Source of the DNA: Acidobacteriota bacterium
GTDB taxonomy: Bacteria > Acidobacteriota > Terriglobia > Terriglobales > Acidobacteriaceae
Direction of reading: 5' to 3'
DNA length: 64,000 nt
Assembly: GCA_021792135.1 (NCBI GenBank)
Contig: JAJYVF010000004.1
Span: 124,001 to 188,000 of the forward strand
The first letter of the stretch is position 1; every line of letters starts with the position of its first letter. Under the pieces are notes generated by a model that had not been told where the DNA came from, did not search any database, and saw only the letters and a list, made by a program, of their open reading frames with translations. This document shows, in pieces, positions 5,688 to 20,576 of this stretch. Both the position numbers and the translations under genes were made by a program.

Positions 5688-6545
5688 TCAGATGCGAAGC
5701 GGCCAGCCCTTTGTGGTTTTTTCAGGAACGCCCGCCGCTTCTCCGCGACCATTTTCGGCTGCGGGCTCGGGGTGCTCGTGCTCGGAAGGTTGGGTGGCCG
5801 CGTGGCCGCGGACCATCATGGCTGCGACATAGGCGGCGCCGAAGCCGTTATCGATGTTCACGACGCAGACATTGGGCGAGCAGGAGTTGAGCATGCCGAG
5901 CAGGGCGGCGACTCCGCCAAAGGCAGCGCCATAGCCCACGCTGGTCGGCACGGCGATGACCGGAGCGGCGACGAGCCCGCCGACAACGCTGGGCAGGGCG
6001 CCTTCCATGCCGGCACAGACGATCACCGCCCGGGCTGCCCGGAGGGATTCGCGCTCGGCGAGAATGCGGTGCAGGCCGGCGACTCCGACGTCCCAGATGC
6101 GGGTCACGCGGAGCCCCAGGTATTCAGCGGTGACGGCGGCTTCTTCGGCGGCAGGCAGGTCGCTGGTGCCGGCGCAGACCACGGCGAGGGTTCCGGCGTC
6201 GGGGCGCTCGGTCCGGCGCAGCCCGATGATGCGGGCGGTTTCGTGGTAGACGGCGTCGGGGACGCGGTCGAGGACGGCGATCCAGGCCTCGGGACTGCAG
6301 CGAGTCGCCAGGACGCTGCCGCCGGCAGCGGCCATGCGGGCAAAGATCTCAGCGACCTGGGTTGGAGTCTTGCCGGCGGCGTAGATCACCTCGGGCAGGC
6401 CGAGACGCAGGCTGCGGTGGTGGTCGATGCGCGCAAAACCGGCGTCCTCGTAAGGGAGCCGGGAGAGCTCGTGGAGGGCGGTTTCTGGAGCGGTGGTCCC
6501 GGTCTGGACGCTGCGCAGCAGTTCGAGGATGGTTTCGCGGGTCAT
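5688..6545 (-). CDS. larB: LarB, nicotinate adenine dinucleotide carboxylase/hydrolase
   Basis: First enzyme of nickel-pincer nucleotide synthesis: it carboxylates the pyridinium ring of NaAD and hydrolyses the phosphoanhydride. The 285-residue product has the PurE/AIR-carboxylase-like core (CAGTSDLPAAEEA at about 124-136, CAGMEGALPSVVGGL at 177-191) and C222 in the NSCSP motif near VVNIDNG, matching the Cys that forms the enzyme-substrate adduct in the family. The start ATG overlaps the larC stop as ATGA at 6542-6545, so translation is probably coupled. The C-terminal 40 residues are variable and His/Glu/Pro-rich. Last gene of the larE-larC-larB unit. Confidence 0.92.
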   Translation of the reverse strand: MTRETILELLRSVQTGTTAPETALHELSRLPYEDAGFARIDHHRSLRLGLPEVIYAAGKTPTQVAEIFARMAAAGGSVLATRCSPEAWIAVLDRVPDAVYHETARIIGLRRTERPDAGTLAVVCAGTSDLPAAEEAAVTAEYLGLRVTRIWDVGVAGLHRILAERESLRAARAVIVCAGMEGALPSVVGGLVAAPVIAVPTSVGYGAAFGGVAALLGMLNSCSPNVCVVNIDNGFGAAYVAAMMVRGHAATQPSEHEHPEPAAENGRGEAAGVPEKTTKGWPLRI

Positions 6546-7852
6546 GCACTGGCCTTCTTTGATTCGCCCCAGGCGGCGAGGGCAGCTTCCATCGCGGCGC
6601 GGAGGGGGACGGAGTGTTCGCGGGCGGCGCGGCGGCAGTCCTCGTATTCGGGCATGGCGTTGAGGATCTCGCCTGTGGAGGAGGCGATCTTGACGCGGAT
6701 CTTGCCGTATTCCGTGTCGACGGGGACCCATTCGCGGTCGAGGATGACGCGGTCTTCCTCATGGCAGCGGATGCCGAGGGTGGTGGTTTCGCGGAAGAGC
6801 AGGCGCTGGAGCGGCCCCTCGTCGCCGGGGCGGGCAAGCACGGTGAGCAGCGTGCCGGGGCGGCCTTTCTTCATGACGACGGGCGCAGCCATCACATCCA
6901 GAGCGCCGTGTTCCAGGGCCAGTTCCATGGCATGGGCCAGAACCTGGGGGGTGACGTCGTCGAGGGCGCACTCCAGAACCATGACGCGATCGCCGGGGAA
7001 ATCTGTGCTGACGGCGCGGCGCGTGGGCGTGCCGACCGAGAGGCGCAGGACGTTGGGGAAGCCCTGGGGATCGTGATTCCCTGCCCCGTAGCCGAGGGCG
7101 CTGTTCGCGAGGGGCGCGTGGTCGTCGAAGCGGCAATCGAGGGCGCGGAGCAGGGCGGCTCCGGTGGGGGTGGTCAGCTCCATCTGCGGGCCGGCGGAAT
7201 AGACAGGGATGCCTTTCAGCAGCTCGGCGGTGGCCGGGGCAGGGACCGGGAAGCGTCCGTGGGCGCAGTTCACAAAACCGCTGCCCACGTTGACCGGGGT
7301 GCAGCGCCATTGGGAGACACCGAGGGAATCGAGCCCAGCCGCCGAGCAGACGATGTCGACGATAGAGTCGACGGCGCCAACTTCGTGAAAGTGGACCTTT
7401 TCGACAGGGATGCCGTGGACCTTTGCTTCGGCTTCGGCCAGCAGCTCGAAGGCGCGGAAGGCGATGCGCCTGGCGCCCTGGGGAATGGCGGCCGCGGTGA
7501 TCAGATCGCGAATCTGCGGCCAGTTGCGCGCGTGGCTGTGAGGATGCCCGGCCGACGAGTGGTCGTGGTCATGCGGGTGGTCGTGATCGTGGTGGTGATG
7601 ATCGTGATCGGGGCCCTCGTCGTGGTGATGATGGTGGTCGGAACCGTCGGCGGGTCGGCCGTTTTCCAGCACCTCGACCCGGGTGGCCTGGATGCCGCTG
7701 CGGTTGACGGAACGGATGCGCAGCTCCGCGCCGATGCCGAGGCCGGCAGCGGTCTTCTGGAGGAGTTCGGCGGGGACGCCGGCGGCGATGAGGGCGCCAA
7801 GCATCATGTCGCCGGAGATTCCGGCAAAGCACTCGATGGATCCGGTGGTCAT
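6542..7852 (-). CDS. larC: LarC, nickel insertion protein for the pincer cofactor
   Basis: CTP-dependent nickel insertase that completes the nickel-pincer nucleotide used by lactate racemase and related LarA-type enzymes. The gene encodes one continuous 436-residue protein, unlike the Lactobacillus plantarum gene, which needs a programmed frameshift. The N-terminal domain contains CFAGISGDMMLGAL at residues 8-21. A histidine-rich segment at about 72-108 is a likely metal-storage or metal-binding stretch. HFHEVGAVDSIVDIV and the C-terminal domain with ALDDVTPQ and MKKGRPGTLL follow. It starts 7 bases after the larE stop and overlaps larB by four bases. Confidence 0.93.
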   Translation of the reverse strand: MTTGSIECFAGISGDMMLGALIAAGVPAELLQKTAAGLGIGAELRIRSVNRSGIQATRVEVLENGRPADGSDHHHHHDEGPDHDHHHHDHDHPHDHDHSSAGHPHSHARNWPQIRDLITAAAIPQGARRIAFRAFELLAEAEAKVHGIPVEKVHFHEVGAVDSIVDIVCSAAGLDSLGVSQWRCTPVNVGSGFVNCAHGRFPVPAPATAELLKGIPVYSAGPQMELTTPTGAALLRALDCRFDDHAPLANSALGYGAGNHDPQGFPNVLRLSVGTPTRRAVSTDFPGDRVMVLECALDDVTPQVLAHAMELALEHGALDVMAAPVVMKKGRPGTLLTVLARPGDEGPLQRLLFRETTTLGIRCHEEDRVILDREWVPVDTEYGKIRVKIASSTGEILNAMPEYEDCRRAAREHSVPLRAAMEAALAAWGESKKASA

Positions 7853-7859
7853 AGAGAGT

Positions 7860-8711
7860 TCAGGAGGCCTTTGCAGGCGGCCGCGCCTTCGCTGCGAGCA
7901 TCTCGGCGGGCAGCAGCTCGTTCATCGATCCGGAGCGGTAGCCGTCGCAGTCCACGGCGACATAGGGAAAGCCGGCGCTGCGAACGCCGGCGGCGATCCG
8001 GTGGAAGAAGTCGGGCGAGAGCGCCGCAGCCATCTCCTCTTCGGCAATTTCGATGCGGGCGACACTGCCGTGATGGCGAACGCGGAAGCGGCGCAGGCCG
8101 AGGGCGCGGAGGGCTTCTTCGGCCTCCTCGACCTGGCGGAGGGCCTCAGTGGTGACGCGGCGACCGTATTCGATGCGCGAAGAGAGACAGGCGGAGGCGG
8201 GCTTGTCCCAGACGCGCAGGCCGGCCTGCTGGGCGAGGGCGCGGATGTCGGCCTTGGTGAGGCCGGCTTCGGCCAGCGGAGCGGCGACATGATGTTGGGT
8301 GGCGGCGCGCTGGCCGGGGCGAAAATCCTTGCCGTCGTCGAGGTTGAGGCCGTAGGCGACGGCGTCAAAATTGCGGCGGGCCCGCACGCTTTCGAGGACG
8401 GTGAAGAGCTCGTCCTTGCAGTGGAAGCAGCGGTTGCCGTCGTTGACGGCGTAGGCCTCGTGCTCCAGCTCCCTGGTTTCGACAACGAGGAGCGGAATGC
8501 CCTGCTCGCGGGCGAATTGGAGGGCGTCGTGATAATGGCTGCGGGCGAGCGAGGCAGAATCGGCAAGGACGGCCTGCATGCGGTCGCCGAGGGCGCGGTG
8601 GGCAGCCCAGGCAAGCCAGGCGGAATCGACTCCGCCTGAATACGCGACGAGAACGCTGCCCAGCTGGCGGAGCCGGGCGTCGAGAGCGGCCTGCTTTTCG
8701 TCGAGGTTCAT
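7860..8711 (-). CDS. larE: LarE, ATP-dependent sacrificial sulfur transferase
   Basis: Transfers sulfur to the pyridinium dicarboxylate mononucleotide during nickel-pincer cofactor synthesis. The 283-residue protein has the PP-loop SGGVDS at residues 25-30 and a single Cys (C175) in KPASACLSSRI, aligned with the sacrificial Cys176 of the L. plantarum enzyme. The two extra cysteines of the iron-sulfur LarE type are absent from that motif. A separate CFHC pair occurs at 95-98. I chose ATG 8711 because it places the PP-loop at the usual distance; the open frame upstream looks non-coding. First gene of larECB. Confidence 0.92.
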   Translation of the reverse strand: MNLDEKQAALDARLRQLGSVLVAYSGGVDSAWLAWAAHRALGDRMQAVLADSASLARSHYHDALQFAREQGIPLLVVETRELEHEAYAVNDGNRCFHCKDELFTVLESVRARRNFDAVAYGLNLDDGKDFRPGQRAATQHHVAAPLAEAGLTKADIRALAQQAGLRVWDKPASACLSSRIEYGRRVTTEALRQVEEAEEALRALGLRRFRVRHHGSVARIEIAEEEMAAALSPDFFHRIAAGVRSAGFPYVAVDCDGYRSGSMNELLPAEMLAAKARPPAKAS

Positions 8712-8909
8712 AAGCCGGTGCAGCCTGCCTTTGATCCTAGACCGTTTCGGCGCTGTCTGCACACCGGAACAAGCCCGGCGGAAGGGCTGCGGATTCCGCG
8801 GAGCGGGAAGCAGAAAAAAAGGCCCGAGACCCGCGGCACCGGCCGGAGATTTCGCTGCATCAGAGGAGATGCGCGGGTAAAGAGCGTGAATCTGGGAAGA
8901 TAGAGAAAG

Positions 8910-10100
8910 ATGACAAGTCCCCAAACGGCCACAATCCTGACCCCGGAAGAACGGCTAGCCAGGCGCAATCTGATCGTGCGGGACGCGTTCTCGCTGCTGA
9001 CGCTTTTCCTGATTACGACGGCGATTTTCGGCCTCACCTGGCTGCTGTACCAGTCCTTCCGCGGGCATCAGCAGGAGCTGGGCCTGCGCTGGAAGGCCCG
9101 CGGGGAAGCGGCTCTGCAGGCTGGCCGTCCCAGGGAGGCGGTCGATGCGTTGCGCTCGGCGCTGATGTATGTGCCGACGCGGGAGACGGAGATCGAGCTG
9201 GCGACGGCGCTGGCTGCGGCGGGCAGGACGCCGGAGGCTGCGTCTTATTTCGAATCGCTGTGGGAATCGGCGCCGGGCGACGGCTTGATCAACCTGGAGC
9301 TGGCGCGCCTGGCGGCGAAACAGGGACAGGAAGCGGCGGCAATCCAGCATTACCAGGCGTCGCTGGACGGTACCTGGCAGGGAAACGGGTTTAACCGCCG
9401 GCGCGAGATCCGGCTGGAGTTGGCGCGGTACCTGATTTCGCGGAAGCAGGATGGCCAGGCACGGGCGCAGCTGCTGATCGCATCCAGCAATGCGCCGGAC
9501 GATCCGGCCATCAAGCTGGAGGTCGCGGGACTGCTGGAGCAGGCGAACGATCCGCAGGATGCGCTGGGGATCTATCGGTCTGTAGCCGCGCGCAAGAATG
9601 CGCCGATCGCGGCATCGCTGGATGCGGGAAGAACCGCCTTCGGTCTGGGGCAGTATCGGGTCGCCGCGCAGTATCTGGGGCGGGCACTGGGGAGTTCGCA
9701 GGTGGAGAAGCTGCCGGACAACGAGAAAATGGCGGAACGGAATATGCTGGATACATCGCTGCACATCCTGCTGCTGTATCCGGCCCTGAATCTGGCGCCG
9801 GACCAGCGCGCGGAGCGTATCCTGTCGGCCAGGAGTACGGCACGGGCGCGTCTGTTGGAGTGCGCGGCGAGCAATGGGACGGCAGCTGGCCAGCTGGCGC
9901 CGCTGGTGGCGCGCTGGGATCAGTTGCCAGCCAGGCTGACGCTGAAAGCTATGGAACAGGATCCGGATCTTGAGCAGTCCATGATGCAGCTGATTTATGA
10001 CACGGAGATACTGACAGCTCAGGTCTGCGGCCCGCCCGCCGGCGACGACGCGCTTCTGTTGCGGATTGCGCAGAACCCCGACGGAGTGGAGCTGGACTAG
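8910..10100 (+). CDS. Membrane-anchored TPR protein
   Basis: Function unknown. The 396-residue protein has a cytoplasmic N-terminal tail, one transmembrane helix at about residues 24-47, and a solvent-exposed domain of tetratricopeptide-like helices, as in GEAALQAGRPREAVDALRSA and similar segments to about residue 270. Purine-rich GAGAAAG lies just before the ATG. Its stop (TAG) is followed directly by the ATG of the ClC channel gene, so the two are one transcriptional and probably translationally coupled unit. The TPR domain may scaffold or regulate the channel; that is inferred from context only. Confidence 0.75.
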   Translation: MTSPQTATILTPEERLARRNLIVRDAFSLLTLFLITTAIFGLTWLLYQSFRGHQQELGLRWKARGEAALQAGRPREAVDALRSALMYVPTRETEIELATALAAAGRTPEAASYFESLWESAPGDGLINLELARLAAKQGQEAAAIQHYQASLDGTWQGNGFNRRREIRLELARYLISRKQDGQARAQLLIASSNAPDDPAIKLEVAGLLEQANDPQDALGIYRSVAARKNAPIAASLDAGRTAFGLGQYRVAAQYLGRALGSSQVEKLPDNEKMAERNMLDTSLHILLLYPALNLAPDQRAERILSARSTARARLLECAASNGTAAGQLAPLVARWDQLPARLTLKAMEQDPDLEQSMMQLIYDTEILTAQVCGPPAGDDALLLRIAQNPDGVELD

Positions 10101-11897
10101 ATGGCAGAACGCACGGCCGCCTCTCTGGAAACCGCAACGCCCCTGAGCGCCCCGCCGAGGGCAGGGGCACCGGCCCTGGCTCCGGAAACCAAACCGAAAT
10201 CCAGCCTGGCCGCCGCGATGGAGCACATCGCTCCGACGCGGGACGAGCGGCTCTTTCTGGTGCTCTCCATCTTTATTGGGGTGATTTCGGGGCTGCTGGT
10301 GGTGGCGTTCCGGATCGCGATCGAGTGGATTCAGCTACTGGCGATGGGCTCATCACCGCACGCCGGGCAGCTGCGGCTGCTGTTCGTGCCGGGGATTGCC
10401 GGGTTGGTGGTGGCGGCGCTGGTGGTGTGGTTCTTCCCGGCTGCTCGGGGCAGCGGGGTGAATCAGACCAAGGCTGCTCTGTACATCTACGACGGCTACA
10501 TCTCCTTCCGGACGGTAATCGGGAAGTTCATCACGGCGGCGCTGGCGATTGGCGGCGGCCATTCGCTGGGCCCCGAGGACCCTTCGCTGCAGATCGGGGC
10601 GGGGGTGGCTTCGATTGTGGCGCGGAACCTGCGGCTGTCGCGACGACGGCTGCGGATGTTTGCGCCGATTGGCGCGGCGGCCGGTCTGGCGGCGGCGTTC
10701 AATGCGCCCATTTCTGCGATCCTGTTCGTCATCGAGGAGGTTATCGGGAGCTGGAGCGCGGCGGTGCTGGGCTCGCTGGTGCTGGCGGCGATCTCGAGCG
10801 TGGTGGTGGTGCGCGGCTTCCTGGGCGCGGAGCCAATGTTCCGGATCCCGTCGATCACGGTGAAGGACCCGCGGGAGCTGATGGCGTATGCGGTGCTGGG
10901 CGTCATCGGCGGGCTGCTGGCGCCGGTCTTCGCCATCATCCTCGGCTACCTGCGACCACGGCTGCGCGCCATGCCGAGGTGGACCCAGTTTGTGCAGCCG
11001 GCAGTGGCGGGGCTGATGGTGGGAGCGATCGGGTATTTCGGATTCCCGCAGGTGATGGGGGTCGGCTACGACATCATCGACCAGGCCATGCACGGGCAGT
11101 TTGTGTGGCAGATGCTGCTGGCCCTGACGCTGCTGAAGCTGCTGGCCACGACGTTTTCGTTCTCCAGCGGGACGCCGGGCGGGATGTTCGCGCCGACGCT
11201 GTTCATCGGGGCGATGCTGGGCGGCGCGGTAGGAGCCTTCGAGAAGCACTTCTTTCCGCACCTTACGGGGACGATCGGAGCCTACTCGCTGGTAGGGATG
11301 GGCGTGCTGTTTGCGGGCTTTCTGCGCGCTCCGCTGACCTCGGTTTTCATGGTGCTGGAGGTCAGCGGGAACTATTCGATCATCCTGCCGCTGATTCTGG
11401 CGAACACACTGTCGTTTCTGCTGTCGCGGACACTGCAGCCGGTGGGGATATTCGAGATTTTCACCCAGCAGGACGGGCTGGATCTGCCTTCGATGGAGGA
11501 GCAGCGGGAGGAAGCGGCCCTCCACATTGAGGATGCGCTGCGGCCGGTGGCAGTACCGGTGGCACGGGGCAGCGATACGCTGTCGGCGGTGGCGGAGGTG
11601 CTGGCGCGCGGCGGCGCGCGGGCGTGTCTGGTGCAGCTGATTGACGGATCGTGGTACCCGATGAGCGCGGAGGAGCTGGCCACGGCTTCCGCCACTCTGG
11701 CGCCGGAAACGCCGGTCCAGCGGGCGCTGAAATCCGACCGTGCGCCGCTGCTCTTCCCGGATATGCCGCTGGACAGCGCGCTGCATTATTTCCCGCGCTG
11801 GCCGCTGCTGCCGATTCTGAACCGCGCCAGCCGCGAAACGCTGGAAGGGATGCTCACGCTGGACGATGTGCTGCACCGCTATCGTGCGGGAGAATAG
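10101..11897 (+). CDS. ClC-family chloride channel/antiporter with C-terminal CBS-like region
   Basis: Voltage-gated-type chloride transporter of 598 residues with about ten or more hydrophobic helices. The three anion-selectivity signatures are present: GSGVN at 117-121, GPEDP at 157-161 (with E159 at the place of the gating glutamate of ClcA) and GGMFAP in the second half. The GREGP motif of E. coli ClcA is thus altered to GPEDP but keeps the glutamate. The last 130 residues resemble a degenerate CBS pair that could sense nucleotides. Whether it is a channel or a proton antiporter cannot be told from sequence. Confidence 0.9.
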   Translation: MAERTAASLETATPLSAPPRAGAPALAPETKPKSSLAAAMEHIAPTRDERLFLVLSIFIGVISGLLVVAFRIAIEWIQLLAMGSSPHAGQLRLLFVPGIAGLVVAALVVWFFPAARGSGVNQTKAALYIYDGYISFRTVIGKFITAALAIGGGHSLGPEDPSLQIGAGVASIVARNLRLSRRRLRMFAPIGAAAGLAAAFNAPISAILFVIEEVIGSWSAAVLGSLVLAAISSVVVVRGFLGAEPMFRIPSITVKDPRELMAYAVLGVIGGLLAPVFAIILGYLRPRLRAMPRWTQFVQPAVAGLMVGAIGYFGFPQVMGVGYDIIDQAMHGQFVWQMLLALTLLKLLATTFSFSSGTPGGMFAPTLFIGAMLGGAVGAFEKHFFPHLTGTIGAYSLVGMGVLFAGFLRAPLTSVFMVLEVSGNYSIILPLILANTLSFLLSRTLQPVGIFEIFTQQDGLDLPSMEEQREEAALHIEDALRPVAVPVARGSDTLSAVAEVLARGGARACLVQLIDGSWYPMSAEELATASATLAPETPVQRALKSDRAPLLFPDMPLDSALHYFPRWPLLPILNRASRETLEGMLTLDDVLHRYRAGE

Positions 11898-12082: not shown

Positions 12083-13897
12083 ATGCTGAGTCTCTATCAA
12101 AGGCTCATTCTCGGATGTGTCCTGCTCATAGCACTGGTCACCGCCGTGAGCTTCCTGGTGCGGACATCCTTTGTCCGGCTGGCGGCGCTGGACGTGCAGG
12201 TGCGGGTAGCGGAATCCGCGGTGGCTTCGCTGGCGTCGGCGCGGGGCGCCATGGCGCACGAAGAACTGATTGCGGTGCAGAGAGCGACAGGCAGCGCGAC
12301 CGAGGCGGAGTTCCGCGACCAGGCCGCGCGGACGCAGACGCTGCTCCGCATGGCGGCGGACGACATGCGGCAGTTCGACAGTTCCCTGCGGGTGGATCTG
12401 GTGGCGGACCGGCACGAGCGGCTGCTGCGGCATCCGCCGGAGAGCGAGGTGGAGCTGACGCGCCAGCTGGAGGCGCTCCATCTTGAGATCCGGCACGACC
12501 TGGATCAGGTTTCGGCGCGGCGCGACGCGGTGGTGCGACCGCTGCGAGGGCAGGAGGACGCGCTGCGAGCTCGCTTGATTGCCGCCTGCGGGCTGAGCAT
12601 CGTGGCCGCCGCTGCGATCTCTGCGATGATGCTGGCGCTGGTGATCGTGCCGCTGCGGCACACGGCCCGCGTGGCGCGGTGCATCGGGCAGGGCGACCTG
12701 CACCAGCGGGTGGAGTGGCGCTCGAAGGACGACCTGGGAACGATCGCCACGGAACTGAACCGGCTGGCAGTGCGATTGCGAGACCTGCGGGAAACGGAAT
12801 CGGGCCGGCGGCAGATGGAGTTCCAGCTGATCGATGCGGTGGTGCGGTCCATCTTTGAGCCGGTGATTGTGACCGACGGGCGCGGGCAGGTGCTGAAGCT
12901 GAACCAGGCCGCTGTGGAGTTGCTGGGCAGCACCTCGCACGGCGCGGAACTGGACCGGATGGTGCTGGCCAATACTCCGGGCGGGGACAAGATCCTGAGC
13001 GCGATCCGCTCCGCCGTCTCCATGCAGCGCGCGACGACCGGCGAAGAGGGAGAAGCGGCGCTGCTGCCGATGCGCATCGGCCAGGCGGAGCGCAGCTATC
13101 GCTTGCGCACCACGCCCATGCGGGACAGCGAAGGGAAACTTCTGGGGGCGGTCACGCTGCTCGAGGACGTAACGGAAATTGCCGAGGTGGACCGCTTCAA
13201 ATCGCGGTTCCTCTCCGTGGCGTCGCAGAGGCTGCGCGATCCTCTGCAGCGGCTGCGGCTTTCCCTGTACGCGCTGACCCAGGGGCACGCCGGCGAGATG
13301 CGTCCCCTGCAGATGGATCTGGCCACCAGCGCCGCGGAGGAGGCCGAGCACCTGGACGACCTGATGCTGGACCTGGTCGAAGTGGCGGAGCTGGAGACGG
13401 GGCGGCGGCAGCTCAGGATCGAGAAGCTGCGTCCCATCGACGCGCTGCGCGATGCGGCGGCCCGCTACCGCGACCGGGCGCGGGAGAAGAACATTGATGT
13501 GGAAATCGTGGCCTTCGAGGACATCGCGTTCGTGCAGGCCGACCGGCGGGCGCTGCGCACGATCCTCGACAATCTGCTGAACAACGCGCTGCGCTATACG
13601 CCGGAAGGTGGGCAGATCCGCCTGGGCGCTTCGGAACAGCAGGAGCGGGTCCAGTTCTTCATTCACGATAACGGGCGGGGGATCGAAGCGGAGCGGCTGC
13701 CGACCATCTTCGGGCGGTTTACCGGCGATCCGGGCAGCGGAGGGACGGGCCTGGGACTGGCAATGGTGCGCCGCCTGGTGGAAACGCAGAGCGGCCAGGT
13801 CTCCGTGGAGAGCCGGCTGGGCTCGGGGACCACCTTTCGGTTCACGCTGCCGGTGGCCGTCTCCGAACCCGAGCGGCACCCGGTGGAGGCGGGATGA
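12083..13897 (+). CDS. Histidine-kinase-like membrane sensor lacking the phospho-acceptor His
   Basis: 604-residue two-component-type sensor: transmembrane helices at about 7-27 and 164-190 around an extracytoplasmic helical region, HAMP at 190-243, PAS at about 245-365, then a dimerisation helix and HATPase domain. The ATP-binding boxes look intact: N box with N497 and N501, DNGRGI at 529-534, FGRF and GGTGLGL. The H-box reads SQRLRDPL, so the position of the conserved His is Gln382 (codon CAG at 13226-13228). It cannot autophosphorylate in the usual way at this site. Its stop overlaps the start of the KdpD-domain gene (ATGA), suggesting a complex of both products. A signalling pseudokinase is the simplest reading. 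Confidence 0.85.
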   Translation: MLSLYQRLILGCVLLIALVTAVSFLVRTSFVRLAALDVQVRVAESAVASLASARGAMAHEELIAVQRATGSATEAEFRDQAARTQTLLRMAADDMRQFDSSLRVDLVADRHERLLRHPPESEVELTRQLEALHLEIRHDLDQVSARRDAVVRPLRGQEDALRARLIAACGLSIVAAAAISAMMLALVIVPLRHTARVARCIGQGDLHQRVEWRSKDDLGTIATELNRLAVRLRDLRETESGRRQMEFQLIDAVVRSIFEPVIVTDGRGQVLKLNQAAVELLGSTSHGAELDRMVLANTPGGDKILSAIRSAVSMQRATTGEEGEAALLPMRIGQAERSYRLRTTPMRDSEGKLLGAVTLLEDVTEIAEVDRFKSRFLSVASQRLRDPLQRLRLSLYALTQGHAGEMRPLQMDLATSAAEEAEHLDDLMLDLVEVAELETGRRQLRIEKLRPIDALRDAAARYRDRAREKNIDVEIVAFEDIAFVQADRRALRTILDNLLNNALRYTPEGGQIRLGASEQQERVQFFIHDNGRGIEAERLPTIFGRFTGDPGSGGTGLGLAMVRRLVETQSGQVSVESRLGSGTTFRFTLPVAVSEPERHPVEAG

Positions 13898-15018
13898 GCG
13901 ATCTGACGCCGCCCCGCCACGAGATGGCGGAACCGGGACGTCTGCGCGTGTATCTGGGCGCGGCTCCGGGCGTGGGCAAGACCTACCGGATGCTCGAAGA
14001 CGCGCATCTGATGCGCCGCCAGGGGATCGAAGTCGTGATCGGGCTGGTGGAGCCGCACGGTCGCGCCGACACCGCGGCGCTGATCAATGGGCTGGAGGTC
14101 ATCCCGCTGCTGGACGTGCAGTACCGCTCGGTGACGCTGCACGAGATGAATGTCGACGCGATCCTGCAACGCCATCCGAGCTGGTGCATGGTGGATGAGC
14201 TGGCTCACACCAATGTTCCGGGATCGCGCAATCGCAAGCGCTACGAAGACGTTCTCGAGTTGCTGGACGCCGGCATCAACGTGATGACGGCGGTGAATAT
14301 CCAGCACCTCGAGACGCTGAACGACGCGGTGGCCCGCTCGGCGAGCACGCAGATCCGGGAAACGGTTCCGGACAGCTTCCTGCGTCGGGCGAACGAGGTC
14401 ATCAACGTCGACATCACCGTCGACGAGCTGCGCGCGCGCCTGCGGCAGGGGAAGATCTACGCGGCGGAAAAGGTGGAGCAGGCGCTGGCGAACTTCTTCC
14501 GCAAGGGCAACCTGAACATGCTGCGGGAGCTGGCGCTGCGGACCACCGCCGAGCAGGTAGGCACCGCCGCTGCCGAATACCGCCGGACGCAGGGGCTGGA
14601 ACAGGCTCCGATGCCGGAAAAGGTGATGGTGTGTGTTTCGGCGCGGGCAGGGATGGAGCGGGTGCTGCGTGTGGGCGCGCGCATCGCCGGGCGCCTGGCC
14701 ACGGACTGGTATGTGGTGTATGTGGAGACGCCGGACACGGATCACCGGCACGGCAATCCGGAGGCCTTTGCGCGGATAGAGGAGTACCAGCGGATGGCGC
14801 GGGATCTGGGGGCCCGGGTGGTCTTGCTGCACGACACAAAGGTGGCCAACGCGCTGATCGAATTTGCGCGCAAGGAGAATATCTCCCACGTGGTGTTTGC
14901 ACAGTCCGCCCGCTCGCGGTGGGATATTCTGCTGCGTGGCTCGATCATCAACCGCTTCCTGAACGAAATGCGGGACACCACCGTGCAGGTGGTGCCGGTG
15001 GAAAGAGAGAGGAGATAG
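13894..15018 (+). CDS. Stand-alone KdpD sensor domain with universal stress domain
   Basis: 374-residue soluble protein equal to only the N-terminal part of KdpD, the potassium/turgor sensor. It has Walker A GAAPGVGKT at 22-30, the Walker B-like region VDELAHTNVPGSRNRKR at about 100-116, and a C-terminal UspA-like domain (about 240-370). No transmembrane helices and no kinase domain follow. Short KdpD proteins of this kind are known from cyanobacteria such as Anabaena. The overlap with the preceding His-less sensor gene suggests the two act together as a split KdpD. No kdpFABC or kdpE genes lie in the window. Confidence 0.9.
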   Translation: MSDLTPPRHEMAEPGRLRVYLGAAPGVGKTYRMLEDAHLMRRQGIEVVIGLVEPHGRADTAALINGLEVIPLLDVQYRSVTLHEMNVDAILQRHPSWCMVDELAHTNVPGSRNRKRYEDVLELLDAGINVMTAVNIQHLETLNDAVARSASTQIRETVPDSFLRRANEVINVDITVDELRARLRQGKIYAAEKVEQALANFFRKGNLNMLRELALRTTAEQVGTAAAEYRRTQGLEQAPMPEKVMVCVSARAGMERVLRVGARIAGRLATDWYVVYVETPDTDHRHGNPEAFARIEEYQRMARDLGARVVLLHDTKVANALIEFARKENISHVVFAQSARSRWDILLRGSIINRFLNEMRDTTVQVVPVERERR

Positions 15019-15072: not shown

Positions 15073-16443
15073 ATGCCCTGCCACTCCTGGTGCTCCTCCG
15101 CTGTCCTTGCCGCAAGCCTCGCAACCCTGACCGCGCTGCATGCGCAGAGCCCCGCGCCATCGCCTCCCATGGGCTGGACAGAATGGGACGCGTACGGCCT
15201 GCCGGTGACCGAAGCTGACTTCCGGGCGAATGCCGAGGTATTGGCGGGGCTGAAGCAATACGGCTGGGAGTATGCCCTGCTCGACGCGGGCTGGTATGAA
15301 CAGGACCCCACAGCCCGCGCCGCCGCCACCAAACACTATGTGTGGGACGCGAACGGTCGCCTGATCCCCGCCGCCAGCCGGTTCCCTTCCGCCGTCGGCG
15401 GAGCGGGCTTTCGGCCGCTGGCCGGCTGGCTCCACGCACAGGGGCTGAAGCTCGGCATCCACGTGATGCTGGGCATTCCGCGGCAGGCAGTGGACGCCAA
15501 CCTGCCCATCGCCGGCTCCGGCTTCCGGGCGGCTGATGCGGCCGACACGCGCCAGACCTGCTCCTGGGACCGCGAGTTCTACGTCGTGAAGGACAACGCC
15601 GCCGGGCAGGCCTGGTATGACTCCATCGCGCGGCAGTATGCGGACTGGGGAGTCGGCTTCATCAAGCTGGGGTGTGTGAGCGACCAGCCCTTCCACCCCT
15701 CCGAGATTCGCCAGATGAGCGAGGCGATTCGCAGGACCGGGCGTCCCATGGTGCTCAGCCTTTCGCCCGGGCCGCCGCCGCGGGAGTATGCGCAGTTCGT
15801 CTTCCGCTACGCCCGGATGGTGCGCTTCTCGGCCGAGCACTGGGACCTGTGGGCGCCGCCGCCGGGAAAGGACGGCTATCCGGTGGGTCTGCGCGAGGAT
15901 TTCGATCTCTTCGCGCAGTGGGAGGCGTATGTGAAGCCAGGACACTGGATCGATGGCGATGTGCTGCCGGACGGGTGGCTGGCTCCGCATCCGCCGGTGG
16001 GCGAGCCCCGGCACTCGCGCCTGAGCCCCAATGAAGAGCGCAGCCAGTTCGCTCTGTGGGCCTTTGCCCGTGCGCCTCTGATCGAGGGTGCCAACCTTTC
16101 CCGACTGGACGCGCTGACGCGCAGCCTGATGACCAATCGCGCCCTGATCGACATTGACCAGCACGCGCGCGAAAGCCACCCTCTCACGAACCTGCCACGG
16201 GGCTTCGAGCACGTCCGCGTGTGGGAGGCGCACATGGGCACGCCGGATCAGCCTCGCCGCTGCTTTGCCTTTTTTAATCTGGACGACGCGCCGGTGACGC
16301 TCAGGGCCGCCTGGACGCAGCTGGGGCTCACCCCGGGATCCCATGCAGCCCGCGATCTGTGGACGGGCCGCGCGCTGGCGCCCTCAACCGGCGTCGAGGT
16401 GCGCCTGCCGCCCCACGGAAGCGCTGTCGAGCAGGTGCGGTAG
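15073..16443 (+). CDS. Secreted GH27-like (alpha-galactosidase family) protein, nucleophile missing
   Basis: 456 residues with a signal peptide (about 1-24) and a GH27-type barrel: MGWTEWDAYG at 33-42, LLDAGWY at 69-75, and HWIDGDVLP at 291-299, where D296 matches the acid/base Asp. The strand that normally ends in K-x-D with the catalytic nucleophile reads FIKLGC, so residue 200 is Gly (GGG) and 201 is Cys. The usual double-displacement mechanism should not work. It may be a binding protein, use another residue, or be decaying, although the frame is otherwise intact. No strong ribosome site is visible before the ATG. Confidence 0.8.
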   Translation: MPCHSWCSSAVLAASLATLTALHAQSPAPSPPMGWTEWDAYGLPVTEADFRANAEVLAGLKQYGWEYALLDAGWYEQDPTARAAATKHYVWDANGRLIPAASRFPSAVGGAGFRPLAGWLHAQGLKLGIHVMLGIPRQAVDANLPIAGSGFRAADAADTRQTCSWDREFYVVKDNAAGQAWYDSIARQYADWGVGFIKLGCVSDQPFHPSEIRQMSEAIRRTGRPMVLSLSPGPPPREYAQFVFRYARMVRFSAEHWDLWAPPPGKDGYPVGLREDFDLFAQWEAYVKPGHWIDGDVLPDGWLAPHPPVGEPRHSRLSPNEERSQFALWAFARAPLIEGANLSRLDALTRSLMTNRALIDIDQHARESHPLTNLPRGFEHVRVWEAHMGTPDQPRRCFAFFNLDDAPVTLRAAWTQLGLTPGSHAARDLWTGRALAPSTGVEVRLPPHGSAVEQVR

Positions 16444-16780: not shown

Positions 16781-18667
<1,887 letters not shown>

Positions 18668-18668
18668 C

Positions 18669-20572
<1,904 letters not shown>

Positions 20573-20576
<4 letters not shown>

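Follow-up and report, generated by a model that had tools for sequence, protein, structure and literature searches.

Genes at the Locus

The window analyzed here is a 64,000-nt stretch of DNA from an Acidobacteriota bacterium of the Acidobacteriaceae (assembly GCA_021792135.1, contig JAJYVF010000004.1, positions 124,001–188,000). Its forward strand carries the subject of this study, a pair of overlapping genes: the first encodes a sensor with the domain order of a histidine kinase and no histidine at the phospho-accepting position (hereafter the pseudo-sensor), and the second a stand-alone KdpD/USP protein. An earlier note on this DNA had described a sensor with HAMP, PAS, ATP-binding boxes and a dimerization helix, Gln382 in its H-box, and an ATGA overlap with the KdpD gene; the coordinates and domains found here agree. 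The two open reading frames, 12083–13897 and 13894–15018, share ATGA at 13894–13897. The two genes and the parts of the sensor are:

12083–13897, forward strand: putative pseudo-histidine kinase gene (ATG start, 604 aa), with a helical N-terminus containing predicted membrane segments, HAMP, PAS, a DHp-like region and an ATP-binding domain
12641–12784, forward strand: HAMP, residues 187–234 (Pfam 25.2 bits; cut-off 25)
12830–13177, forward strand: PAS, residues ~250–365 (Pfam PAS_4, 38.2 bits)
13199–13402, forward strand: degenerate HisKA/DHp, residues 373–440 (Pfam HisKA 20.7 bits, under the cut-off of 26.9)
13226–13228, forward strand: codon CAG for Gln382, at the position of the phospho-accepting His, in FLSVASQRLRDPLQRL
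13541–13858, forward strand: HATPase_c, residues 487–592 (Pfam 98.6 bits), with N, G1, F and G2 boxes kept
13874–13894, forward strand: C-terminal tail RHPVEAG, residues 598–604, with E602 and G604 invariant in 26/26 orthologues
13894–15018, forward strand: stand-alone KdpD/USP protein gene (ATG start, 374 aa), a predicted atypical serine kinase

For comparison, 60 loci of the same bacterial family were fetched around KdpD genes, mostly from the top of the match list, and are thus not a random sample. They are of two kinds: 25 hold orthologues of both the window's sensor and its KdpD, and in 35 the KdpD is just ~40% identical to the window's. When 61 KdpD proteins were aligned, these 35 were put aside as a different subfamily.

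HK853-type kinases need an acidic residue after the His and a Thr or Asn at His+4 for their kinase and phosphatase activities. In the window's sensor, Gln382 is followed by Arg383 and Asp stands at +4 instead of Thr/Asn, so that the residues essential to the kinase and to the phosphatase are both gone. Orthologues have Lys or Arg after the H-box position, then most often Asp at the second place. The ATP-binding site is kept, with N, G1, F and G2 boxes intact in all 26 aligned orthologues. A substitute His, which the earlier note had considered, is not conserved anywhere in the DHp helices of these 26 proteins; only two columns are at least half His, namely 269 in PAS (His in 14/26, non-His in the window) and 599 in the C-terminal tail (25/26).

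A predicted structure of the sensor, with a mean predicted local distance difference test score (pLDDT) of 74.7 and a predicted template-modeling score (pTM) of 0.38, places helices at 364–401 and 408–439 and is evidence for the domain layout alone. Many members lack the long N-terminal region, their match beginning near residue 160–176; the conserved input is therefore more likely cytoplasmic.

Loss of the Phospho-Accepting Histidine

We read the H-box of 81 related sensors, 73 of which score above 500 bits: 71 from family f1, which includes the window, and two from family f12. None of the 73 has a His. The position is taken instead by Arg (37), Gln (21), Ser (4), Lys (3), Glu, Asp and Ala (two each), and Leu and Asn (one each). 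Similarly, seven further family genomes (G008, G111, G124, G142, G240, G245 and G278) have Gln, Arg or Glu and never His. All told, the sensor was found in 81 family genomes; its H-box could be read in 78, without a single His, and G101, G122 and G021, whose copy runs off its contig, are the three unread. Another collection, of named genomes and overlapping the first, gave 122 relatives, of which 80 were kept; the H-box was readable in 78 and none has His. The pseudo-sensor spans 16 genera of the sample, and named hosts include Silvibacterium bohemicum, Acidipila rosea, Paracidobacterium acidisoli, Terracidiphilus gabretensis and Occallatibacter savannae.

That Gln382 reflects a mutation confined to this genome or an error of assembly is ruled out, as His is absent in f1, in f12 and in the second collection. 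The earlier note had named a Gln unique to this gene, with His in close relatives, as the finding that would speak against it; the close relatives lack His. Its suggestion that an alignment of homologues might reveal a conserved Gln in conserved synteny was borne out in part: His is absent and the synteny with KdpD is conserved, but Gln is not constant (Gln, Arg, Glu, Leu and others).

The free variation at this position, with nine residue types, could mark a broken kinase gene that is being lost. Selection tells otherwise: the ratio of nonsynonymous to synonymous polymorphism (pN/pS) between the window and seven relatives is 0.19–0.46 over the whole gene and 0.11–0.28 in PAS and DHp, mostly lowest in HAMP, PAS and DHp, and the sensor is under purifying selection in every domain. 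Together with the 16 genera and the conserved C-terminal tail, this makes a decaying relic highly improbable. The tail was not seen in the two f12 sensors or in eight more distant relatives. Thus, judged by its sequence, the sensor is a conserved pseudo-histidine kinase in a conserved gene pair.

The Stand-Alone KdpD Partner

KdpD lies directly 3′ of the sensor at 69 of the 71 f1 loci and at both f12 loci, and both misses are at contig ends. In the named collection, it adjoins the sensor in 77/78 cases, and the one exception is 328 bases from the end of its contig. The window's KdpD matches PF02702 KdpD (304 bits) and Usp (27.5 bits) and is the only PF02702 match in its genome. It scores 408.8 bits against NCBIfam NF038185 (KdpD_non_kinase), below the curated cut-off of 550, and 351.3 bits against full-length KdpD, NF007793 (cut-off 1123); it consists of KdpD and Usp only, without DUF4118, GAF, DHp or CA. 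Its features are:

13957–13983, forward strand: Walker A-like GAAPGVGKT, residues 22–30 (G-x5-GKT)
14191–14199, forward strand: Walker B VDE, residues 100–102, with D101 and E102 invariant
14614–14967, forward strand: USP domain, residues 241–358, with the E. coli-type RXXXR-X8-WXVVY motif and not the cyclic di-AMP (c-di-AMP) motif

Walker A, the Walker B Asp-Glu and Arg182 are each unchanged in 26/26. GKT is followed by Tyr in 23, by Phe in 3 and by Trp in none; the adenine-binding pair in E. coli is Trp39/Arg190, and Arg182 is matched to Arg190 by motif position only. The KdpD domain has been described as an atypical serine kinase acting on KdpB, with activity reported for the Escherichia coli and Deinococcus geothermalis proteins (PMC11018627). 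Given this published activity, the window's KdpD is most simply predicted to be such a serine kinase, a function that the earlier note did not bring up. The KdpB of the window's genome has TGES at 153–156.

Two loci carry tandem KdpD/USP genes (L083:10120–12300 and L170:11500–13720), in which the upstream copy reads IDG/VDG and has lost the Walker B glutamate. Replacing this glutamate abolishes the activity of E. coli KdpD (PMC11018627), and the upstream copies are candidate pseudo-serine-kinases beside an intact one. Adjacent PF02702 doublets also occur in G049, G077, G084, G104, G106 and G128.

Relatives Outside the Family and Origin of the Pair

In a sample of the phylum, the window-type KdpD was found in 36 of 396 genomes (37 matches), with a clear score gap between these (at least 527 bits) and the next match (397). 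At the 31 such loci outside the family, KdpD is co-directional and follows the kdp genes in 26, stands beside a divergent kdpABC in three, and has no kdpABC in the stretch in two. Both f12 loci (L139 and L140) have the order kdpA-kdpB-kdpC-psHK-kdpD_N (psHK, pseudo-histidine kinase), with His replaced by Asn or Ser; the earlier note did not mention these pseudo-sensors inside the kdp operon. In contrast to these, sensor relatives in families f23, f77, f48 and f83 retain HELRTPL, and L173 (f44) has HQLKTPL.

The presence of a response regulator follows that of the His. A regulator gene lies within 3 kb of all seven His-bearing relatives, and within 40 bases of six. None was found within 3 kb at the 71 f1 loci, and among the 73 only L139 has one, the KdpE next to its other kinase; the search used one receiver domain at E 1e-6, which could miss distant regulators, and 56/73 loci reach 3 kb on both sides.

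In a quick tree built from 79 sensors and excluding two f1 genes cut by contig ends (L216 and L217, of the 71), the His label changes twice: in the stem of f12 + f1, and in L146 (f72). The latter sensor (L146:6790–8622) follows kdpABC-kdpD_N, has the H-box AAQALQEPL, and no neighboring regulator was found. It is perhaps an independent loss of His, and its placement is unsure because of its long branch. In the simplest history, the module would have started in a kdp operon with an active kinase and a regulator, lost His and regulator in either order, and left the operon later in the window's family.

A sensor of this kind could also work in reverse, with its old docking face binding a phosphorylated regulator (e.g., KdpE~P) and reporting to KdpD, which would tie pump activity to the transcriptional state. 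DivL (4q20) is the best PDB sequence match of the sensor (E 7.5e-29), and its core is one of the better structural matches (ranks 12 and 13); DivL itself has neither kinase nor phosphatase activity and binds DivK~P (PMC4211667), and KdpE is encoded in the window's genome. However, the His-bearing relative L143 also has DivL as its best PDB match, so that the match is uninformative on pseudokinase status, and the search within 3 kb of the family's pairs turned up no regulator gene. We regard such a reversed flow as rather unlikely.

Kdp Genes Elsewhere in the Genome

The window's genome has one KdpA, on another contig (C8), together with KdpB, KdpC, a DUF4118 kinase and KdpE; the earlier note was right that neither kdpFABC nor kdpE is nearby. 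The DUF4118-HisKA-HATPase kinase on C8 has an intact ITHDLRTPL and no KdpD domain. That note had also read the pair as a KdpD split in two, with a pseudokinase as its kinase half. A conserved pseudokinase in a conserved pair stands, but the sensor as KdpD's own kinase half is not supported in view of this DUF4118 kinase, which has its His and lies beside kdpABC in the same genome.

A looser version would have the pseudo-sensor and KdpD act in trans as regulatory subunits of the intact DUF4118 kinase, setting the balance of its kinase and phosphatase activities toward KdpE. That kinase lacks a KdpD domain while the genome's only one sits in the pair, and at L139 psHK, KdpD_N, a KdpHK-like kinase and KdpE are consecutive. 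On the other hand, 25 of the 31 phylum loci outside the family with this kind of KdpD show no sensor relative beside it (2 of the 25 are one-chain KdpDs), so the system works without the sensor elsewhere, and separate chains are described as most common in Acidobacteriota and Chloroflexota (PMC11018627). Such a split system is, in our judgment, unlikely.

KdpA is present in 32/36 pseudo-sensor genomes of one family sample and in 43/45 other pseudo-sensor genomes, 75/81 in total, that of G099 being counted from a fragment; among sampled family genomes without the pseudo-sensor, it is present in 82/114. The misses are G019 (99% complete), G058, G122 and G142 (all <85%), and G287 and G305 (<90%). 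G089, a genus mate of G019, has KdpA and the other kind of KdpD, without the pseudo-sensor. No KdpA was seen around the 71 f1 loci, whose flanks range from 0 to ~11 kb.

c-di-AMP and the Diadenylate Cyclase

The earlier note had offered c-di-AMP sensing as one role of the pair, and the evidence goes the other way. No match to the diadenylate cyclase domain PF02457 was found in the window's genome, and the c-di-AMP motif of USP domains, SXS-X20-FTAXY (PMC4686210), is absent, a test that is weak on its own. The motif occurs in 0/26 by a loosened pattern, while the E. coli-type motif, strictly defined, occurs in 19/26, including the window.

Diadenylate cyclase was found in 75 of 150 family genomes, distributed as 1/36 with the pseudo-sensor and 74/114 without it (Fisher p 7e-12). 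The sole genome with both is G021, in which the sensor copy is a contig-edge fragment. This fragment of a window-type pair (G021:C60) lies in a genome of the cyclase-bearing clade with a second KdpD gene on another contig, and reflects either gene transfer or contamination. As the cyclase was not found in the other 35 pseudo-sensor genomes, c-di-AMP is an unlikely input there; sensing of c-di-AMP by the pair is unlikely.

A Proposed Input Module for KdpD

Signaling by contact is suggested by three features of the sensor, namely its conserved pairing, its intact ATP site and the lack of a regulator nearby. As KdpD is its constant neighbor, we propose the sensor as KdpD's input subunit. Also in favor are the place of the f12 pseudo-sensors within the kdp operon, the presence of KdpA in 75/81 pseudo-sensor genomes, the conserved serine-kinase residues of KdpD and the TGES motif of the genome's own KdpB. 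Our preferred reading, held tentatively, is therefore that the pseudo-histidine kinase may be an input module for the KdpD serine kinase in K+ homeostasis. In broader terms, the dead sensor of many soil Acidobacteria probably serves as a switch for KdpD and not as a classical two-component kinase.

The mechanism that we envisage starts from a former histidine kinase that, by its sequence, has lost its autophosphorylation residue and kept its membrane anchor, HAMP, PAS, dimerization helices and ATP-binding domain. It would work without phosphotransfer: signal- and nucleotide-dependent changes in its core would be passed by contact to the soluble KdpD, with the RHPVEAG tail as a candidate contact site. 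Once on, KdpD, whose predicted catalytic residues are in place, would phosphorylate the serine of the KdpB TGES motif and thereby shut the KdpFABC pump. The main target would be the KdpB of the unlinked kdpABC operon, whose transcription would remain under the intact DUF4118 kinase, encoded separately, and KdpE. The pseudokinase would thus fill the place of the K+-sensing transmembrane/GAF domains of E. coli KdpD and of c-di-AMP in the short KdpD of Deinococcus.

Several observations weigh against this scheme. Wherever a genome has both KdpA and the pair (75 cases), the two are on separate contigs or at least 49 kb from each other. The 99% complete genome G019 (L177) has the pair and no KdpA match, so KdpB is an unlikely target there. 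The family's other kind of KdpD lacks the c-di-AMP motif too (0/35), though half of the family genomes have the cyclase, and the missing motif therefore proves little alone; the E. coli-type motif is likewise found in 0/35 of that kind. On a tree of RpoB and RpoC, built for 37 of 40 hand-chosen genomes (three had no RpoB match; one of the 37 is represented by RpoC only), the presence of the cyclase is one deep split, and in four independent pairs it never differs. The mutual exclusion of cyclase and pseudo-sensor is therefore not independent evidence and, lacking an informative independent pair, was dropped as support for a replacement of c-di-AMP. Finally, a short KdpD of the other kind occurs in three genomes that lack both the cyclase and the pseudo-sensor (G012, G064 and G089); the pseudo-sensor is thus just one of the solutions available without c-di-AMP.

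Neighboring Genes

Directly 5′ of the sensor, on the same strand, the window has:

10101–11897, forward strand: CLC-type chloride channel

A CLC gene is found 5′ of the pair at 24 of 71 family loci; of the 28 loci whose upstream sequence extends to 4 kb or more, 18 have it. It is linked to the pair, not obligatory. A membrane protein of ~500 aa with a DUF6798 match occurs at 47/71 loci (45 on the same strand; e.g., L078, L085 and L174), either between CLC and the pseudo-sensor or 5′ of the sensor.

The CLC gene at 24/71 loci and the missing KdpA match in G019 make another target thinkable. The pair might have left Kdp altogether: directed by the pseudo-sensor, KdpD might phosphorylate the co-oriented CLC, for instance, or some other K+ transporter; the DUF6798 protein and the distance from kdpA in all genomes compared would fit. 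Yet KdpA is present in 75/81 genomes with the pair, the KdpD serine-kinase residues are unchanged, and 10 of the 28 loci with enough upstream sequence (at least 4 kb) have no CLC gene. We consider this departure from Kdp quite unlikely.

Farther upstream, at 6500–8924, lie genes that we take to be LarC-, LarB- and LarE-like, presumably for the nickel-pincer cofactor; they are divergent from the TPR-CLC-sensor-KdpD genes, and a LarC-like gene occurs at 15/26 loci compared. Downstream, a glycosidase-like gene (15073–16443) is followed by two adjacent FG-GAP/VCBS-repeat-like proteins (16781–20576; 628 and 686 aa), named by eye.

Significance and Comparison with Known Systems

Taken one step beyond the preferred input role for KdpD, and more tentatively than that role, a histidine pseudokinase may have become a membrane-bound subunit dedicated to regulating an atypical serine kinase, providing post-translational control, without c-di-AMP, of the Kdp pump or another transporter. 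Phosphotransfer would have given way to contact signaling as the cognate regulator was lost, a change made once in the common stem of two families and perhaps a second time in another family (L146). If true, bacteria without c-di-AMP gain a new post-translational control of such a transporter. The gene pair supplies a concrete candidate switch for the KdpD serine kinase. It occurs in soil Acidobacteria that have been cultured, and its two proteins make it possible to test whether a histidine pseudokinase regulates a serine kinase. Relatives that have both His and a neighboring regulator can be compared, on one tree, with a conserved pseudokinase that has neither. ChrS of Corynebacterium is reportedly a pseudokinase as well. 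Judged by titles or the start of abstracts, none of the papers that searches of PMC on KdpD and histidine pseudokinases brought up deals with the pair; subscription papers and preprints are mostly outside that collection. According to PMC11018627, control of the KdpD serine-kinase activity needs further characterization, with only c-di-AMP shown there for a short form.

Full-length E. coli KdpD shares the Walker A/B and USP domains and the E. coli-type USP motif with the window's KdpD; compared with it, the window's pair is divided over two chains and has no DUF4118/GAF and no active DHp. The His-bearing kinases near kdpABC-kdpD_N in other Acidobacteriota families (L143, L144, L147 and L170) are the nearest His-bearing relatives in the tree, and L143 shares the HAMP/PAS/HisKA/HATPase order. 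Unlike the window's pair, all four have an intact HELRTPL, a response regulator within 30 bases, and another gene order. In Deinococcus radiodurans, a truncated kdpD lies in the kdp operon with a separate kinase (PMC5716572), whereas the window's pair is away from kdpABC.

Two known systems come closest: the short form of KdpD acting as a serine kinase, and DivL. The short KdpD/Usp serine kinase of D. geothermalis (PMC11018627) resembles the KdpD of the pair in being a stand-alone KdpD + USP protein with the catalytic residues, and the same paper reports a separate intact kinase and KdpE in Acidobacteriota genomes, as in the window's; the D. geothermalis protein is activated by c-di-AMP, whereas in the window's genome, which has no cyclase match, KdpD would be coupled to a pseudo-histidine kinase. 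DivL of Caulobacter (4q20; PMC4211667) likewise has PAS, a replaced His and a kept ATP-binding domain, and signals without being a kinase. It acts in the DivK/CckA cell-cycle circuit, whereas the window's sensor is predicted to be membrane-anchored, has HAMP and a variable residue at the His position, and has a predicted serine kinase as its gene partner.

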